Part shown: positions 2,631 through 10,795 of the stretch, piece by piece | How positions within the stretch are numbered: position 1 is the first letter of the stretch | Layout: each line of letters starts with the position of its first letter | NCBI GenBank assembly: GCA_016210285.1 | Contig: JACQUN010000200.1 | Location: 1 to 10,911 of the forward strand | Direction: 5' to 3' | DNA length: 10,911 nucleotides | Source: Chloroflexota bacterium | GTDB lineage: Bacteria; Chloroflexota; Dehalococcoidia; UBA1127; JACQUN01 | Position numbers and translations under genes: made by a program | The notes under the pieces: model-generated | What the model saw: only the letters and a program-made list of their open reading frames with translations | The model's database searches: none | What the model was told of the DNA's origin: nothing

Positions 2631-2696
2631 ATGGGACAAGCTCTTAGGCAGTCTGATACGTTCGCAAGAACTCAATGGCGCTGGGCTTATCGTTGA
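2631..2696 (+). CDS. Doubtful 21-codon ORF with a perfect ribosome binding site
   Basis: AAGGAGGT at 2621-2628 is followed two bases later by an ATG that opens 21 codons and a TGA. The ORF overlaps the 3' end of the restriction-enzyme gene on the other strand. The spacing between the ribosome binding site and the ATG is shorter than ideal and the peptide (starting MGQALRQSD) has no recognisable features, so it is probably accidental. It is listed because the rest of the 224-base gap between tgt and the restriction gene holds no gene. Confidence 0.12.
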   Translation: MGQALRQSDTFARTQWRWAYR

Positions 2697-3510
2697 ACTT
2701 CCCGACGATTTCGTTGCCGTTTTTGAAGCGGATATGAATCTCGTACCGCTCGAAACTGGAAGGCGTACGCGCTTCGTCATAGTCTTCTAGCAAGGCGACC
2801 GCCTCGTCAACAGACTTTGCCTCATACGCGTTGCCGTGCAAAGGGAGGACAATAATCGCCTGGATTTTGCGGGAGACCGCCGCCGTGAGCGAGGCCATGA
2901 ACTTGTTTACGTCAGAAACGTTGCTCTTGAGTAGTGCAGCCGCTACCGCTTTCTTTTTGGAGGCAGGCAGCGCGTCCCACTGATTCACCTTCTGCTGGAA
3001 GATTGCATCAGGTGTACCTTCATCGGAGAAGGCGTCTATACCGACTTGCTTGAACGCATCAATGACTGAGGAGTAAGGGAAGTACACGACGGTAAATCCT
3101 AGAGACCGCAACTGGCTTAACGCACCTTCCGTGAACACCCCAGCTAGGACAGCACCCTTGAATGGCCCCGAATGGCTGTAGGTTTCGGCCAGAGGCTCAA
3201 TCGCTCCCTGAATCTCTTGCGCCTTGGCGCGTGAGTGCTTTGTGTATCGCCTCCACGCGGTCTCTATAAAGGCCACGGGCGTGCCTTGCTTGGACGGTGT
3301 GCCTCCTCGCTCCAACACGAAGTCCAAGCCGTGCTTATTTCCGTTCTTGTCAACCCACGTGCACTTCAGTCCTGGTCGGCAAGGTCTCTTGCCCTTGCGG
3401 TCAAGGTAGAGCTTGTTCTTCTTAGCGTGCTGTAGCAGCAGGGGAAGGATAGCGCCTTCCAGCATGTCACCGATAATCTGGCCGAATCTATGTGCCGGTG
3501 AAACAGCCAC
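2644..3510 (-). CDS. Candidate restriction endonuclease paired with the adjacent DNA methyltransferase
   Basis: This 288-residue protein is not one I can assign to a named restriction family. Location directly behind a DNA methyltransferase makes a type II-like endonuclease the best guess. The segment HGLDFVLERGG (Asp63) followed by VAFIETAWRRYTKHSRAKAQEI (Glu83) resembles a PD-(D/E)XK core. The residue two after Glu83 is Ala rather than Lys; Lys91 or Lys96 might serve instead. The C-terminal 60 residues (ERYEIHIRFKNGNEIVGKF) look like a separate small beta domain. Start is GTG at 3510, two codons after the methyltransferase stop and in the same frame, so translational coupling is likely. Base composition is lower in GC than the flanking genes, suggesting transfer. 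No signal peptide or membrane segment is seen. Confidence 0.6.
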   Translation of the reverse strand: MAVSPAHRFGQIIGDMLEGAILPLLLQHAKKNKLYLDRKGKRPCRPGLKCTWVDKNGNKHGLDFVLERGGTPSKQGTPVAFIETAWRRYTKHSRAKAQEIQGAIEPLAETYSHSGPFKGAVLAGVFTEGALSQLRSLGFTVVYFPYSSVIDAFKQVGIDAFSDEGTPDAIFQQKVNQWDALPASKKKAVAAALLKSNVSDVNKFMASLTAAVSRKIQAIIVLPLHGNAYEAKSVDEAVALLEDYDEARTPSSFERYEIHIRFKNGNEIVGKFNDKPSAIEFLRTYQTA

Positions 3511-3513
3511 CGC

Positions 3514-4788
3514 TTATCCCTGTACCCACAAGAAACCTTCGTGAAGGGGGACTCGGTGTTTGCGATTCTTCCACTTCACGTTTCGGTCACGTATCTTCTC
3601 GAACCTGTACGAACGGAAGCCAGCTTGGAAGGCGAGTTCACCCAGCCATCGGTCTGTAGGGATGTGGATGCCGTAGGGGGCCGAGTCTCCCACAACAAAG
3701 CAAACTTCGCTCCCTTCAGCGCAGACACGCCGCAGCGTGCGCCATACCTCTTTCATGTCTAAAAAGTAGGCCGCCACCATAAGGTGGTAGTCTTTCTTCC
3801 CGCCATGATTGAGCCGTTCTTCGGCCAGCCTCTCGCAGGCGGTTGAAATCTCCTCAATGAAGGTGGTTCCATGTAGCGCACCCAAGAGCGGGTCGAGACT
3901 CAGCTTCTCGATAGAGGCATGTTGGGAACACGACCGGATAAGCCGTTTCCGGGCCCTCTCGTGCAGCTCTCCCCAACCGTGTACCTCGCCAAGGAAAGTC
4001 ATCTCCAGCCTCGTGGCATCAGCGTAATCGTAGTTGTTTGCGTAGGGCGGCGACGTGACCACCAGGCCGACAGAACCGTCAGTGATGGAACCACATGATC
4101 GCGCATCATCAAGGAAGATGTTGGCCTCGTGTCGGACTTCGAAACCTTGCCAGAGGGTCATGTCCGACAGCATCCTCCGGACCTGGAGGGTGAACGCCTC
4201 ATAGGGAGCCAAAACCTTGGCTTTGGTCTTGGCTGGCAAGACATATTGCCAGGGTGCGGTTCCCGCAAAGGAACACGCTCGCAGGATACTCACCAATGCG
4301 AGCCAGGTGAGCTTGGCGGCTGGGCTACCATCGTTCAAGTGGTCCCATGCACACCGAAGGCTGTCCAAGTCACGGATTGCCTCTTTGGTGAAGCACCCAT
4401 GTATTAGGTCGGGGTAGGACGGCTCCATTCTCCGTTCAGTCTTCGCTCGGTCGGCCACGGCTTGAGCCATGTCGTGGAAATCGTTGGTGGTCGTATACCA
4501 AAGTAGCTTGGCCTCCGCTATGCGTTGGATGAAAGGCTGAGCCTCCACTCCATATGCCCGCACACCAGCGCTTTCAGCAGCAAGGACAGAAGTACCTACT
4601 CCCGCGAACGGGTCCAGAAAGGCTAGGCCATCAACTGTGCTCTTGCAACTCTCTATGACGCTCTCAGCCCATTCCGCCGAGAATCCGGCTGGAAACCGAA
4701 ACCAACCATGCACGGGGAGGCGCATGTTGTGGATGAACGTGGACTTCGCACTCTCCCACTTTGGAGGCTGGATTCTAGTCTGTGTCAT
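3514..4788 (-). CDS. DNA methyltransferase (N4-cytosine or N6-adenine type) of a restriction-modification pair
   Basis: This 424-residue protein carries the S-adenosylmethionine motif FLDPFAGVGTS at 57-67 and the catalytic motif TSPPYANNYDY at 245-255. TSPPY is typical of enzymes that methylate the exocyclic amino group of cytosine or adenine. Motif I lies before motif IV with about 180 residues between them, the order of alpha-class enzymes with a target-recognition region in the middle; YFLDMKEVWRTLRRV and VCFVVGDSA after motif IV fit later conserved strands. The ATG at 4788 has GGGGAG just upstream. It is followed by the candidate nuclease gene after one extra codon. The roughly 50% GC of this block contrasts with flanking genes near 70%. 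Recognition sequence cannot be read from the protein. Confidence 0.88.
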   Translation of the reverse strand: MTQTRIQPPKWESAKSTFIHNMRLPVHGWFRFPAGFSAEWAESVIESCKSTVDGLAFLDPFAGVGTSVLAAESAGVRAYGVEAQPFIQRIAEAKLLWYTTTNDFHDMAQAVADRAKTERRMEPSYPDLIHGCFTKEAIRDLDSLRCAWDHLNDGSPAAKLTWLALVSILRACSFAGTAPWQYVLPAKTKAKVLAPYEAFTLQVRRMLSDMTLWQGFEVRHEANIFLDDARSCGSITDGSVGLVVTSPPYANNYDYADATRLEMTFLGEVHGWGELHERARKRLIRSCSQHASIEKLSLDPLLGALHGTTFIEEISTACERLAEERLNHGGKKDYHLMVAAYFLDMKEVWRTLRRVCAEGSEVCFVVGDSAPYGIHIPTDRWLGELAFQAGFRSYRFEKIRDRNVKWKNRKHRVPLHEGFLWVQG

Positions 4789-5934: not shown

Positions 5935-7659
5935 TCAGGCACCGGGCGCCACTTCCCGCACCGCCTCCTCCACCAGCGAGGATGGCACGTCGTCGCGGGC
6001 CACGGCCCTGCCGATGCCCTCCAGCAGCACCCAGCGGATGGTCTTCCCTGCGGTCTTCTTATCCACCTGCATGGCGGCCCGCACTGCGTCCAGCCTCACG
6101 GGGGGGGAGCGGAGCGGCAGGTGGAAGCGCTCCAGCACCTGCTGCTGGCGCGCCACCCCCTCCGCATCCAGCAGGCCCATGCGGTGGCTGATGTGAGCGG
6201 CAGCCGTCATCCCTATGGCCACCGCCTCGCCGTGGAGGAGCTGGCCGTACTCGGTGGCCGCTTCCAGGGCGTGGCCGATGGTGTGCCCGTAGTTCAGCAG
6301 GGTCCGGATGCCCAGGGTCTCCCGCTCGTCTTTGGTCACCACCTGCGCCTTGATGGCGATGCTGCGCTGCAAGACGGGGACGACGGCCTCCGGGTCAAGG
6401 CGCCCGAGCGCCTCGGCCTGGGCCTCGAAGGCGCGCAACAGGTCGGCGTCCAGGATGAGGCCGTGCTTGACGGCCTCCGCCCAGCCGGAGGCCAGCTCCC
6501 GCGGCGGCAGCGACGTCAGGGTGCGCACATCCGCGAGGACGAAGCGGGGCTGGTGGAAGGCCCCCACCAGGTTCTTGCCCGCGGGGAGGTTCACCGCCGT
6601 CTTGCCGCCAATGGAGGCGTCCACCATGGCTGCCAGGGAGGTTGGGAGCTGGATGAAGGGCATCCCCCGGTTATAGGTCGCAGCCACGAAGCCCGCCAGG
6701 TCGCCCACCACACCGCCGCCCAGGGCCACGATGAAGTGCCCGCGCTCGGCGCGGCGGTGGGCCAGGAAGCGATAGGCCTGCCCGGCCACCTCCAGGCTCT
6801 TGGAGGGCTCCCCCGGCGGCATGATGAAGCTGTGCATCGGGATACCAGCGTCTTCCAGGGAGATCTGGACGCGCCGCTGGTAGCGAGCGGAGACCGTCTC
6901 GTCGCTGATGCAGTAGGCCACCGAGGCCAGCCCTGCCCGCTGGCAGAACCCGCCGAGCTGCTCCAGGAGGCCCCAGCCGACGTAGATCGGGCACGGCCCT
7001 ACCGAGGAGTGCACCACGGCGGCCGGAGCGGGACCCGTGCCTTCTGTGCTCACTTCAGTTGTCCTCTCCCCAGCCTCCGTTGGTTGGCTCCCCTCTGTGC
7101 CAGGGGATGAGGTGGGACGGCGTAGGCGGCCTCGCAAGGCATCCCACGCCCTCACCACCTCCCTAGCTGCCTCCCCCACAGTCAGGGTATCGGTATGGAC
7201 CGTCCAGTGGGCCAGGGCGTAGGCAGGCTGCCGCTGCCCTTTGAGCTGGCGGATGCGACCCAACGGGTCTGGGTCGGCAAGGAGGGGCCGGATCGGATTG
7301 GGCCCACCGCTCGTGGTATCAAACAGGCGCTGGTAGATGGTCTCAGGCCGGGCCTCCAGGCACACCACCACGCCAGAGCGCAGCATCAGCGCCCGATTCC
7401 CGTCGTCCACGACCGCGCCGCCGCCGGTGGCAATGACGGTGGACGCTGTGCGGGCGCAGGCCCCGGCGAGCACCTGCGCCTCCAGGCGGCGGAAGGCTGG
7501 CTCCCCGTCCTCGGCGAAGACGCGTTCAACAGGCTTGCCCGCCCGCCGGGTGATTTCGTCATCCGTGTCCACGAACTCCCAGGCCAGGAGACGCGCTGCC
7601 TCCCGCCCGATGGCGGTCTTGCCCGTTCCCGCGAAGCCGGTGAGGATGAGCTTAGACAC
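5935..7659 (-). CDS. aroKB: Fused shikimate kinase / 3-dehydroquinate synthase
   Basis: This 574-residue bifunctional enzyme covers steps two and five of the shikimate pathway. Residues 1-172 are shikimate kinase: P-loop GFAGTGKT at 8-15, DTDDE at 31-35, TGGGAV at 78-83, RPLL in the lid and RQPAYA at 143-148. A Ser/Thr/Glu/Pro-rich linker spans about 176-220. Residues 221-574 are 3-dehydroquinate synthase: GGGVVGD at 314-320, PTSLAAMVDASIGGKT at 339-354, AEAVKHG with Glu395 and Lys398, and the zinc histidines His459 (NYGHTIGH) and His476 (LHGEAVAIGM). The GTG at 7659 is chosen since it starts the kinase fold and has GAGG 9 bases upstream; it overlaps the stop of the MNT gene by 8 bases, implying coupled translation. 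The first codons are duplicated at 8408-8500. Confidence 0.96.
   Translation of the reverse strand: MSKLILTGFAGTGKTAIGREAARLLAWEFVDTDDEITRRAGKPVERVFAEDGEPAFRRLEAQVLAGACARTASTVIATGGGAVVDDGNRALMLRSGVVVCLEARPETIYQRLFDTTSGGPNPIRPLLADPDPLGRIRQLKGQRQPAYALAHWTVHTDTLTVGEAAREVVRAWDALRGRLRRPTSSPGTEGSQPTEAGERTTEVSTEGTGPAPAAVVHSSVGPCPIYVGWGLLEQLGGFCQRAGLASVAYCISDETVSARYQRRVQISLEDAGIPMHSFIMPPGEPSKSLEVAGQAYRFLAHRRAERGHFIVALGGGVVGDLAGFVAATYNRGMPFIQLPTSLAAMVDASIGGKTAVNLPAGKNLVGAFHQPRFVLADVRTLTSLPPRELASGWAEAVKHGLILDADLLRAFEAQAEALGRLDPEAVVPVLQRSIAIKAQVVTKDERETLGIRTLLNYGHTIGHALEAATEYGQLLHGEAVAIGMTAAAHISHRMGLLDAEGVARQQQVLERFHLPLRSPPVRLDAVRAAMQVDKKTAGKTIRWVLLEGIGRAVARDDVPSSLVEEAVREVAPGA
7592..7650. repeat. Direct repeat copy A (inside aroKB start)
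   Basis: These 59 bases encode residues 4-23 of the shikimate kinase domain (P-loop) on the minus strand. They match 8433-8491 at 56 of 59 positions, offset 841 bases; differences are at 7597, 7621 and 7627. Similarity stops abruptly at the fourth codon of the gene on one side. Confidence 0.95.
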
Positions 7660-7993
7660 GGCGTCCCTCGTCGGGAGGGAACAGCCGGATTCCCCCCTGC
7701 ACCATCCTGTCAATGGTCTCTTTGAGGACCTGGTACTCCTCTTCGGCATAGACGTGAGGTTCCAGGCGCGGAACGTCCAGGGTCTGCTTCACCAGGGCGA
7801 AGGCGTCAGGCCGTGGGGCTCCCCGGTAGACCACCAGCAGGTCCACGTCACTGCTCACGGTGTAGTTGCCCTTCGCATAGGAACCGAAGAGCACAACGAG
7901 GAGTAGTGGAATCCGCTGCTCCAGTTCAGCGATTCCCCCAGTGATAGCCCGAATGACAGCTGACGTGTCATGCTTGGGATAGAAGACGCGCAC
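7652..7993 (-). CDS. MNT-domain nucleotidyltransferase antitoxin (MntA-like)
   Basis: This 113-residue minimal nucleotidyltransferase shows the exact family signature GSX10DXD: Gly37-Ser38, then Asp49 and Asp51 in SSDVDLLVV. In characterised type VII systems MntA neutralises its HEPN partner by transferring AMP to it. The C-terminal PHVYAEEEYQVLKETID is typical of MNT proteins paired with HEPN genes. I chose GTG at 7993, which overlaps the HEPN gene by 26 bases; the open frame continues to 8155 but that part is a shadow of HEPN. No clear ribosome binding site precedes GTG, so reinitiation from HEPN translation is likely. Its last codons overlap the aroKB start by 8 bases, tying its expression to aromatic amino-acid synthesis. 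Confidence 0.9.
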   Translation of the reverse strand: MRVFYPKHDTSAVIRAITGGIAELEQRIPLLLVVLFGSYAKGNYTVSSDVDLLVVYRGAPRPDAFALVKQTLDVPRLEPHVYAEEEYQVLKETIDRMVQGGIRLFPPDEGRRV

Positions 7994-8360
7994 AGAAGGT
8001 GATGACCCGCTCGGCGTGCTCAACGAGTCGCTTCGCCTCCTCTGGGATGTACCGTTCGCGCGGCGTGCCTGATGGATGGGCGTTGGGATACCTGGCTGGG
8101 ATATAGGCCTTGTCCAGCTCCAGTGCTCCGTGAAGCAGCTCTTCTGGAACGGCATGTCTCTTTCCCAGCTCCTTCAGCAGGTCTGCGACCGAGTGCCCCC
8201 AGGCTTCAGCCCCGAGCTTCTGGAATACGGCTTTGACGGCCTTCTCGGCGCCTTGCTGGGCAGAAAAGCATGCCCATTCGTAGAACCCTCGCTCTATATC
8301 GCTCTTGGCATGTTCCAGGTCGCCCTGGGCCTGGTACATCCAGTCACGACTTCGTTCCAA
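7968..8360 (-). CDS. HEPN-domain RNase toxin (HepT-like)
   Basis: This 130-residue all-helical HEPN protein forms the toxin half of a HEPN-MNT pair. The start SRDWMYQAQGDLEHA, then FYEWACFSAQQGAEKAVKAV and GHSVADLL are the standard four-helix layout. The RNase motif R-x4-H is present as Arg90 to His95 (RYPNAH), so it should be catalytically competent. The start is TTG at 8360, with GGAG 9 bases upstream; the family normally begins at this point, although an ATG at residue 8 is an alternative. Family members cleave RNA or tRNA and are silenced by AMP transfer from the MNT partner. It begins 47 bases after the aroK remnant and is inside the repeat-bounded segment. Confidence 0.92.
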   Translation of the reverse strand: MERSRDWMYQAQGDLEHAKSDIERGFYEWACFSAQQGAEKAVKAVFQKLGAEAWGHSVADLLKELGKRHAVPEELLHGALELDKAYIPARYPNAHPSGTPRERYIPEEAKRLVEHAERVITFCARLLSQA

Positions 8361-8407
8361 GAGTCACTACTCCGAGTGTATTTGCCAAGGCGCTTACCTC
8401 GACCCTG

Positions 8408-8500
8408 TTATGAATACAAGCAGGAGAGCAGCCGCGCCGCCTCCCGCCCGATGGCGGTCTTACCCGTACCCGCGAAGCCGGTGAGGATGAGGTGGGGCAT
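8408..8500 (-). pseudogene. Truncated aroK 5' remnant
   Basis: A 30-codon ORF starts with ATG at 8500, two bases after the stop of the upstream Trp-rich gene, and ends in TAA at 8410-8408. Its residues LILTGFAGTGKTAIGREAAR and two Leu are identical to residues 4-25 of the aroKB product; after them the sequence turns into SCLYS and stops. It therefore holds the kinase P-loop but nothing else and cannot be a working kinase. It is best explained as what remained of an aroK gene start when the HEPN-MNT segment was inserted or acquired. Confidence 0.92.
8433..8491. repeat. Direct repeat copy B (in the aroK remnant)
   Basis: This is the partner of 7592-7650: same orientation, 841-base offset, 56 of 59 bases identical. 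Together the two copies bracket the HEPN and MNT genes. Recombination between them would join the ATG at 8500 in frame to the rest of aroKB. Confidence 0.95.
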
Positions 8501-8502
8501 GG

Positions 8503-8967
8503 TCACACTGTTCTCTGCTGCCACACCTGGTATGTACGCTTCAATTCACCTACCCAGAAAGCATCTCGCTCTGAGTCAAGTTGTTCAGGTGTTGTGTCCC
8601 ATTGGGCGGCATCGCTATATAGATGATCCGGAATCCCCGGGAGTCCCCAAAACCCTCTTCCTGGCTTATTGGTGTCCCTGTTCACGACCAAGGCGGAGAT
8701 GAGGGGCCGGCCGCGTCGGTGCTCGTATACGCTGCATGCCCAACATATCCAGCCAATCTTCCGAGGCCACCATTCGTTGTCGGGAAACCAGAGCAAGCCA
8801 ATCTGCCTGCCAAGGTCGCTATAGGTGATGACACGTTCTGTTGCGGCTGTCTTGATAAGTACATTGTACCCCTTCGGGACCAACTCCTCCCATTCCTCCC
8901 AGGAATGGATGGGTCCTCCGTGTTTCATCTGCTCGCTCCACAGACCCTTCAGCAAGTGTGCTTCCAT
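8503..8967 (-). CDS. Trp-rich protein of unknown function
   Basis: I do not recognise this 154-residue protein with confidence. It has 12 tryptophans (about 8%), concentrated in FPDNEWWPRKIGWICWAC and the ends, and no signal peptide or membrane span. The piece ERVITYSDLGRQIG resembles the helix-turn-helix opening of the alkylguanine-transferase DNA-binding domain, but the PCHR active site is absent. The segment RPLISALVVNRDTNKPGRGF looks like a stretch I recall in uncharacterised phage- or restriction-associated proteins; this is a weak memory. The ATG at 8967 has GGAGG 5 bases upstream, a strong site. It follows the DUF2283 gene by 63 bases and ends 2 bases before the aroK remnant. Context suggests defence or toxin function. 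Confidence 0.75.
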   Translation of the reverse strand: MEAHLLKGLWSEQMKHGGPIHSWEEWEELVPKGYNVLIKTAATERVITYSDLGRQIGLLWFPDNEWWPRKIGWICWACSVYEHRRGRPLISALVVNRDTNKPGRGFWGLPGIPDHLYSDAAQWDTTPEQLDSERDAFWVGELKRTYQVWQQRTV

Positions 8968-9030: not shown

Positions 9031-9255
9031 CTACTCATTGCCGCTCATATGAGCCATGATGCGGGCCCGCAAGCCCACGATCGTCAGACCTACCACCTCC
9101 TGTCGGTGCTCATCATAGCGCACAACTACACCTTCCCCGATGTCAATCCCCAAAGCTGGCCGTGGGTTCCCGACAGAGATGTACAGCACATCTGCTTCTT
9201 TGTCATATTCCCAGTTCAGCGGAAGCCTTCCTTCCAGTACCTTTATCGCTTCCAT
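9031..9255 (-). CDS. DUF2283 small protein, candidate antitoxin
   Basis: This 74-residue protein matches the DUF2283 pattern: WEYDKEADVLYISVGNP at 15-31 followed by GEGVVVRYDEHRQEVVGLTIVG. DUF2283 proteins often sit beside small toxin-like genes, but their biochemical role is not established. The ATG at 9255 overlaps the end of the preceding toxin-like gene by 13 bases and has GAGGAGG 9 bases upstream (with AGGTGA closer), so strong and coupled translation is expected. It is acidic overall near the C-terminus. The antitoxin role is an inference from the pairing. Confidence 0.85.
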   Translation of the reverse strand: MEAIKVLEGRLPLNWEYDKEADVLYISVGNPRPALGIDIGEGVVVRYDEHRQEVVGLTIVGLRARIMAHMSGNE

Positions 9256-9554
9256 ATCACCTGCCTCCTCTCTAAGGGCCTCCGGGCAAAGTAGGCGGTC
9301 AGAATCACGCCGTCGCGCTGGGTTAACTCCTTATAGACCACCACTAGGAACTTCTCGGTGAGAGGCGTTTCAGAATAGAAACGGACAGCAAGAAGCTCTC
9401 CAAAGTCCCCCTGCTGCATTTGGTCTGGTTCTCCAACAGTCTGAAGCACTTTCTGAACCTGGGTCTGCATTTCTGGGTGGCGACGGGTGATATGTTCCCA
9501 TCGTTCCTGAGTTAGACGAACGGTTACGCCGTTTCTAGAAAGTGTGCTAATCAA
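9243..9554 (-). CDS. Small RNase-like toxin candidate (PBECR/RelE-type fold suspected)
   Basis: This 103-residue protein has the form VRLTQERWEHITRRHPEM, a middle segment GEPDQMQQGDFGELLAVRFY, a hydrophobic strand KFLVVVYKEL and a final GVILTAYFARRP. This layout is what I associate with small nuclease-like proteins of the phage Barnase-EndoU-ColicinE5/D-RelE group, where the W-x-H-I and H-P residues recur; I cannot verify it here. The start appears to be TTG at 9554, the only suitable codon after an in-frame TGA, with no clear ribosome binding site. It begins 35 bases after aroC, so it may be read from the aroC transcript, and it overlaps the DUF2283 gene. A toxin role is inferred from size and pairing. 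Confidence 0.72.
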   Translation of the reverse strand: MISTLSRNGVTVRLTQERWEHITRRHPEMQTQVQKVLQTVGEPDQMQQGDFGELLAVRFYSETPLTEKFLVVVYKELTQRDGVILTAYFARRPLERRQVIWKR

Positions 9555-9589: not shown

Positions 9590-10795
9590 TTACTCACGTC
9601 TCCCCCTCGGCCCCAGCGTCTTCAGGTAGCCCAGGTAGTTGCGGCGCATCTCCTCAACGTGGTCGCCGCCGAGCTTCTCCAGCAAGGCGTCCGCCAGCAC
9701 CATGGACACCATGGCCTCGCCGATGACCCCAGCAGCAGGCACCTGGCAGACGTCGGAGCGCTCGTAGTGGGCCTGGACGGCCTCCCCGGTGAGCAGGTCC
9801 ACCGATGGCAGGGGTTTCTCCAGGGTGGAGATGGGCTTCACCACGAAGCGGCCCACCAGGGGCATGCCGTTGGTTATGCCGCCCTCGGTGCCGCCGGCAT
9901 TGTTGGTGCGGCGCCTCCACGGGCCGGATGGCGAGAGCGAGTCCCCGTTGCCCTGCTGCTCCACAGGCAGGATGACATCGTGCACCTGGGAGCCACGGAG
10001 GTTTGCCTGCTCCCAACCGTTGCCTAACGAGACGGCCTTCACAGCGGGGATGGACATGAGGGCCTGGGCCACGCGCCCGTCCAGCTTCCGGTCCCACTGG
10101 ACATGGCTCCCCAGGCCGATGGGCACCCCGGCCGCGATGACCTCCACGACGCCGCCGACGGTGTCCCCGGCCTCCCTGGCCGCGTCAATGGCGGCCATCA
10201 TCCCCCGCTCCGCCTCCGGGTCGGCGCAGTGGACGGGGGAGGACTCGACTGCTTCCCAGTTGACGGGCTCCTTCGGCTGCGCCCACACGCCGCCGATACA
10301 GAGAACGTGGGAGTGGAAGGCCATGCCGAACTCTTCCAGGAGGCGGCGAGCCACCGCTCCGGCGGCCACTCGCGCTGCCGTCTCCCGGGCCGAGGCCCGC
10401 TCCAGAATGGTGCGCACGTCGGACTGGAGGTACTTCATGGCGCCGGCCAGGTCGGCATGGCCGGGGCGCAGGCGGGTGACCGGCTTCCCAGGGTTCTCTG
10501 ACGGCTCAACCGCCATGACCTCTTTCCAGTTCTCCCAGTCCTTGTTGCGGATGAACATGGCGATGGGTGAGCCCAGGGTCTTTCCATGCCGCACGCCGGA
10601 CAGGAGCTCCGCGAAGTCCTGCTCAATCTGCATGCGCCCGCCGCGGCCGTAGCCGAGCTGGCGGCGGGCCAGTTGCGCCCGTATGTACGCCTCGCCCAGG
10701 GGAAGCCCGGCGGGCACCCCCTCCACGATAACGCTGCGTCCCTTGCCGTGGGACTCGCCGGCGGTGAGGACGCGGAACAGGGGCACGACCTCCAC
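9590..10795 (-). CDS. aroC: Chorismate synthase
   Basis: Chorismate synthase converts 5-enolpyruvylshikimate-3-phosphate to chorismate using reduced FMN, the last common step to aromatic amino acids. The 401-residue length is normal. All signature regions are present: GESHGKG at 13-19 with catalytic His16, [11 protein letters not shown] at 50-60, RPGHAD at 110-115 with His113, [14 protein letters not shown] at 133-146, [13 protein letters not shown] at 298-310, and [16 protein letters not shown] at 348-363. The start is uncertain: GTG at 10795 is the longest choice, with GTG at 10786 close to a GGAGGT at 10793-10788. It is the first gene of the minus-strand series and is separated from its pathway partner aroKB by the toxin/defence segment. 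Confidence 0.97.

Follow-up and report, generated by a model that had tools for sequence, protein, structure and literature searches.

The window analyzed here, by which we mean the whole contig JACQUN010000200.1 of a Chloroflexota bacterium (10,911 bases; a metagenome assembly, like most of the relatives used for comparison), contains the 5' end of aroK twice on the minus strand, with a predicted HEPN-MNT toxin-antitoxin (TA) pair in between. The inner copy (7659-7580) belongs to the working aroKB fusion (shikimate kinase plus 3-dehydroquinate synthase; 5935-7659, minus strand; Pfam SKI, DHQ_synthase, and DHQS_C), and the outer copy (8500-8421) lies 841 bp away, such that direct repeats of host sequence are present at both ends of the HEPN-MNT insert. 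An initial annotation had described the first 20 or so codons of aroKB as occurring twice in the same orientation at this distance, and both repeat searches and self-BLAST of the window agree: the copies align over 82 nucleotides (nt) at 85% in the former and over 71 nt at 90% (E 1.6e-23) in the latter. Across codons 4-25, 60 of 66 bases are identical (56 of 59 counted from codon 4, the figure originally given), the codon register is the same, and all six differences are synonymous, with the copies diverging at codons 1-3 and from codon 26 on. Their longest exact run in common is 23 nt, making a k-mer misjoin unlikely, although other assembly errors are not all excluded thereby.

Both open reading frames (ORFs) tested between the copies, which overlap each other, were identified by Pfam as the HEPN and MNT genes that had been annotated there. 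The HEPN toxin-like gene (7968-8360, minus strand) matches PF05168 (E 1.1e-32), and the MNT antitoxin-like gene (7652-7993, minus strand, with the start codon at 7993 chosen by us) matches NTP_transf_2 (PF01909, E 1.1e-9), its stop codon overlapping the start of the working aroKB. The catalytic motifs are R-x4-6-H for HEPN and GSx10DxD for MNT proteins; the window pair carries RYPNAH (R-x4-H) and GSYAKGNYTVSSDVD, respectively. Adjoining each other and endowed with these motifs, the two genes are predicted to form a HEPN-MNT toxin-antitoxin-like pair. With 32.4 bits where the NCBIfam MntA cut-off is 60, the MNT protein falls outside the curated MntA family; the HEPN protein has no NCBIfam match. 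GC content is about 0.60 in both genes, 0.52-0.55 in the other three ORFs of the aroC-aroKB interval (a Trp-rich ORF, a DUF2283 gene, and a 103-aa ORF), and 0.69-0.70 in aroC and aroKB themselves; the low GC between aroC and aroKB fits acquired DNA.

The outer copy forms a 30-codon ORF (8408-8500, minus strand; MPHL...LLSCLYS), whose codons 4-25 match the working gene and whose codons 26-30 do not; its ATG (8500-8498) sits 2 bases past the stop of the Trp-rich ORF. The present aroK start at the inner copy (7580-7659, minus strand) consists of GTG-Ser-Lys, codons 4-25 in common with the scar, and then the gene's own codons 26-27. Our comparison set comprised the 119 other proteins among the best 120 AroKB proteins listed, 118 of which were alignable at the P-loop. 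Of these 118, 102 have N as residue 3, 5 have H, and none has K, and the MPHL of the outer copy recurs in bacterium HR23. The residue-3 pattern thus indicates that the scar retains a native-looking start, and that the present start seems to come from the insert. The initial annotation had likewise assigned the outer copy to the original aroK start and the inner one to the working gene. It had also proposed that recombination across the repeats would restore aroKB in frame; given the common codon register, a crossover between the copies would indeed join MPHLILTG in frame to the remaining aroKB, as judged by reading, with no flanks joined.

The aroK region was scanned at 74 loci on genome contigs, and the aroK start was compared with its own surroundings in 67 loci, 40 stretches, and 20 more, sets that overlap in genomes. 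Among these, same-strand upstream copies of the aroK start at E < 1e-6 occur only in the window and in locus L001 of genome G001 (a Chloroflexi bacterium from groundwater), with different cargo; the arrangement is therefore not one that all relatives share with strongly diverged repeats. L001 is the closest relative among those found (65% AroKB identity, a value that none of the 120 AroKB proteins listed exceeds). In the distant L002, aroC and aroKB are about 120 bp apart. The L001 interval spans 5.4 kb and holds two fragments of the aroK 5' end, at 7013-7063 (90% of 51 nt) and 6306-6332 (96% of 27 nt), both of which start near an ATG. A search of G001 (2.3 Mb) at E < 0.01 returned only aroK itself and these two fragments, on one strand of one contig. 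The fragments are 97% alike over 34 nt, a mutual likeness at least equal to that toward aroK, and as scars they separate three defence or TA modules. One holds GmrSD_N plus HEPN_RiboL-PSP and another DUF433 plus DUF5615; the third consists of HicB and HicA with ABC genes after them. Copies of the aroKB 3' end facing intervening DNA were found at 2 of 27 loci. In L104 (genome G177), where the script flag fell on an antisense ORF and the case was read by hand, BrnT and BrnA lie between the copies and HicBA beyond, and the aroKB frame carries stop codons; in L083 (G148) no TA genes lie between the copies. Separately, the 2-kb aroC-aroKB interval of L024 (7990-10001) contains AAA-ATPase-like and PIN-like ORFs, recognized by eye, and no convincing aroK scar.

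An aroK-specific hotspot can be dismissed, since the ends of dapA, queA, comM-like, hemL-like, thrS-like, polA, and aroB genes show the same layout around members of other TA families. Most of these come from G001, where a survey of 80 contigs, each cut at 20 kb (1,019,744 bases), gave 78 pairs of local direct repeats at E up to 1e-4. Thirty-five local pairs were filtered by hand, not blind. Many-copy repeats (55, 33, and 22 copies), repeats inside one ORF, paralogues (the gas-vesicle genes of L286), and L262, with its doubtful gene call, were set aside; rows near an ORF end and not facing the other copy (L249, L252, L287, L290, L300, and L242:17101) were read as dispersed or contig-edge repeats, short ORFs, or paralogues. 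Facing gene-end copies were found at the 3' ends of dapA (two scars), queA, a thrS-like gene, hyuB, a 709-aa ORF, and the PIN gene of L243, and at the 5' end of aroK. Of the gene names, queA and hyuB were identified by Pfam; dapA, thrS, comM, and hemL are what we take the respective genes to be. The cargo comprises a PIN remnant below cut-off plus DUF2283 at dapA, DUF4258 (just below cut-off) plus DUF2283 at queA, a CorA gene plus Shedu SduA (N and C domains) at the thrS-like gene (L242 14683-17001), and HicB-like plus HicA (below cut-off) at the L243 PIN gene. Family searches in G001 (DUF2283, 4 loci; PIN, 5; DUF5615, 3) added a comM-like gene (Mg_chelatase) with two DUF4258 modules and a 3'-end scar after each, and a hemL-like gene (Aminotran_3) whose 5'-end scar brackets a PIN module in the same layout as the window. 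The G001 dapA is a mirror of the window, with the native end in the scar and the foreign end on the working gene, at the other end of the gene. In 29 relatives DapA ends at most about 10 residues from a conserved DL/DI; the intact G001 gene carries a 32-residue unrelated tail, scar R3 reads DLPVGAGA and then a stop, and scar R2 shares those terminal bases but carries a frameshift.

TA genes are associated with such repeats in G001. Of 12 loci, 5 have a TA-family gene between the repeat copies, while among 200 random 3147-bp windows 6 are bracketed (p 9e-5). The count of 5 is stricter than one of 6 of 12, since in L340 the PIN gene itself is the duplicated gene. These results bear on a chance or technical origin, by which the window would reflect an assembly error, or an independent partial duplication of aroK with TA genes in between by accident. 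Local direct repeats are indeed not rare in the 1.02 Mb of G001 surveyed, and the window and most relatives are metagenome assemblies; nevertheless, the short exact runs in the window, the recurrence at aroK in L001 and at other genes, and the excess in G001 speak against such an origin, which we regard as very improbable.

Outside G001, DUF2283 loci were examined in 29 other genomes, the top-ranking ones of 94 that had a match out of 247 in total; a facing gene-end repeat is present at 6 of the 29, against 0 of 29 dapA loci (p 0.012). Clear cases are a polA-end repeat at L349 and a comM-like end repeat at L350. Two more are L368, where copies of an alpha/beta-hydrolase gene surround DUF4258-DUF2283 (here, too, the script flag fell on an antisense ORF, and the case was read manually), and L348, where a PIN plus RHH pair lies between copies identical at 49 of 50 positions; the L348 scar lacks the end present in the intact gene, so that this end may be found on either side. 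In L355 a comM-like end is repeated with DUF2283 outside the copies, and the locus was rejected; L369 and L389, both unclear, were left out of the evidence. In the phylum to which a Nitrospirae-titled genome belongs, 8 of 31 DUF2283 loci are bracketed (p 8e-5), most of the repeats not being gene ends; L401 has a gene-end repeat (96% of 69 nt) with its second copy at the contig end. Also in this phylum, L403, L404, L407, and L409 show direct repeats of 54-87 nt near or around the TA pair, outside long ORFs. A wider scan of 155 loci (1.93 Mb) flagged further facing rows, of which L046, L049, and L051 are paralogues by length and L197 is a probable paralogue, while L123, L021, and L007 (32-41 nt) were not counted as cases; end repeats not facing each other occur at L097, L105, L112, L196, and others. 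The pattern is dense in one Chloroflexota genome, G001, and sporadic elsewhere. The initial observation is thus confirmed and larger than first noted, the window being one member of a set of TA or defence modules between duplicated housekeeping-gene ends.

How such structures arise can be approached from their form. In the window, L001, and dapA, a homologous anchor lies on one side and unrelated sequence on the other, and the old end is kept; a single crossover of a circle fits this too. We lean, with some reserve, toward incoming DNA having recombined by homology at a core-gene end, the old end being displaced as a scar beyond the new module. HEPN-MNT would have come in beside a short piece of a related aroK, yielding a product of the form A-B-C-cargo-E-B-D, with B the common gene piece, which could result from one crossover at B between the chromosome and a circle or from one-sided homologous integration. 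Upstream, the old start (MPHL) would persist as a dead scar. The working gene would run on from the second copy, and its GTG-Ser-Lys start, which overlaps the MNT stop, would derive from the incoming end. Repeated events at one gene end would stack modules with scars between them, as in L001. We infer homology as the driver, as well as the donor, the order of events, and the exact recombination route; any remaining mobility or present excision of the window pair would be hypothetical. A ComEC-family gene is present in G001, and also in 10 of 14 control genomes.

An insertion with long target duplication would yield a similar structure. In this scenario, the module entered one aroK site and duplicated about 66-80 bp of it, the copies being identical at first and diverging later. 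The resulting A-B-insert-B-C form is the same, with an insert-derived end on the working gene and the native end in the scar as in the window and dapA; fresh cases such as L348 and L401 suit it well, and, in the available portions of one source, long variable target duplications of about 100 bp are stated for some restriction-modification (RM) systems (PMC3874152). The differences between copies in the window and at dapA R3 point the other way. Synonymous and nonsynonymous differences number 6 and 0 in the window (p 0.010) and 8 and 2 at dapA R3 (p 0.026), as expected for two alleles already diverged under selection and unexpected under neutral decay of a scar. Furthermore, the native terminal bases persist in both dapA scars, and the start of each L001 fragment lies close to an ATG. 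Target duplication is therefore a possible explanation of the window, though a distinctly less probable one than integration by homology.

A third scenario views the modules as relics of an integrase-made island or of a trans-mobilized element that used the gene end as attachment site, its recombinase lost or located elsewhere. Displaced gene ends and module accretion are typical of such elements. Against this, scars at one gene have different edges: the shared piece ends at codon 25 in the window and at codon 16 (or about 40 via a weak second piece) in L001, and the two dapA scars begin 40 nt apart, which argues against a fixed attachment core, in a comparison resting on few, partly decayed scars. 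Moreover, the scars involve several unrelated genes, at the 5' end in some and the 3' end in others, and no integrase was found among the nine window and eight L001 ORFs scanned with Pfam, a subset of the ORFs. We thus consider this origin improbable. The initial annotation had likened the window to elements that enter tRNA genes and regenerate their target, here without an integrase; the latter part agrees with the nine window ORFs, while the analogy with such elements becomes one of several routes.

Several results weigh against integration by homology as a route for TA modules. Some of the three TA families counted in G001 had already been seen in scars when the families were selected, and without the three loci known beforehand the count falls to 2 of 9 (p 0.04). 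Under a strict test, in which DUF2283 itself must lie between the copies, 3 of 29 loci from other genomes of the order qualify, compared with 4 of 154 controls (p 0.08) and 1 of 30 HEPN loci. The hyuB and 709-aa ORF scars of G001 enclose no recognized TA gene. At hyuB, thrS, and queA there is no synonymous excess (p 0.51, 0.79, and 0.12), with p 0.013 for all five loci combined; this mixed pattern leaves room for target duplication, above all for fresh cases. No empty site or donor was found among the relatives compared. Finally, none of 30 short HEPN loci has a facing gene-end repeat. In addition, 19 of 20 long HEPN loci have no flanking repeat better than E 0.01, the sole strong one, at L201, being a dispersed intergenic repeat, and the closest HEPN relative (72%, L184) has no flanking repeats. 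An element specific to HEPN-MNT is accordingly rejected, the HEPN loci surveyed elsewhere having no facing gene-end repeats and other TA families being bracketed.

Beyond the outer scar, the stack in the window continues on the minus strand up to aroC (9590-10795; Chorismate_synt, E 1.4e-116), its upstream border. The 154-aa Trp-rich ORF directly upstream of the scar (8503-8967; ORF call) has no match in Pfam, PADLOC, or NCBIfam. Further upstream come an antitoxin-like DUF2283 gene (9031-9255; PF10049, E 7.8e-8) and an overlapping 103-aa ORF (9243-9554; ORF call), a possible toxin partner with no family match in the same three collections. Elsewhere in the window, at 2644-4788, lies a type II RM pair (PADLOC REase_II, E 2e-71; MTase_II, E 4e-124), flanked by what are presumably a tgt-like gene and an aldo-keto-reductase-like ORF; no repeat surrounds it in a scan of the whole window at E up to 1e-6.

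To our knowledge, it is seldom explained how TA modules get into chromosomes when neither a transposase nor an integrase is present, and the duplicated-end pattern hints at a general integrase-free route for TA pairs into chromosomes. Gene-end scars would serve as a readable fossil of each entry, naming the anchor gene, ordering the events, and dating them roughly. Should the pattern hold, defence and TA islands could be read as layered stacks, and the notion that TA modules spread by way of core-gene homology could be tested in any transformable laboratory strain. A bolder and doubtful version would have TA modules act as tiny mobile units without an integrase. Each would carry part of a housekeeping-gene end, excise through recombination between its two flanking copies, and enter a new host at a core-gene end through host recombination, supplying a working start or stop such that the essential gene is never lost.

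In our literature search, TA modules between duplicated core-gene ends were not described, most subscription papers being outside its reach, so that this is no proof of absence. RM insertions with long target duplication, which together with the Vibrio cholerae arrays described below are the closest known parallels, were reportedly treated in Nobusato 2000 and Furuta 2010. As far as the sources are available, such insertions resemble the present cases in placing a small addictive cassette between direct repeats of about 100 bp of host sequence. They differ in being reported for RM, whereas here TA pairs are involved, often at gene ends, with repeats differing mainly synonymously in two cases; the accessible part of PMC2654758 cites the long-target-duplication work for RM only. 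With respect to the cargo, type VII HepT-MntA shares the order HEPN then MNT and the motifs R-x4-H and GSx10DxD, while the window proteins differ in the NCBIfam results given above. A HEPN-MNT pair carried by a Tn3-family transposon (PMC7157771, in its available sections) is likewise mobile, but with a transposase and resolvase, neither of which is among the ORFs scanned here. Other parallels concern the mechanism. Homology-facilitated illegitimate recombination has been shown experimentally (PMC3240628, PMC2884548), and one-sided homology and transformation-made duplications find support in PMC2884548 and PMC3784515, as far as these texts are available. It likewise has one homologous end and one that is not, with foreign DNA added beside a conserved stretch, the difference being that it is experimental there and read from sequence here; our search found no work tying it to TA modules. 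In Vibrio cholerae, arrays of type VI secretion system (T6SS) immunity genes are proposed to arise by sequential displacement, which the accessible text of PMC5361080 likens to this process. There, too, modules are stacked at a conserved anchor and old parts remain beyond the new module, including the displaced 3' end of an effector gene. In those arrays, at least as that text describes them, the anchor lies in a T6SS cluster and effectors are replaced, whereas in the window and G001 unrelated, intact housekeeping genes serve as anchors and the cargo consists of TA or other defence genes.

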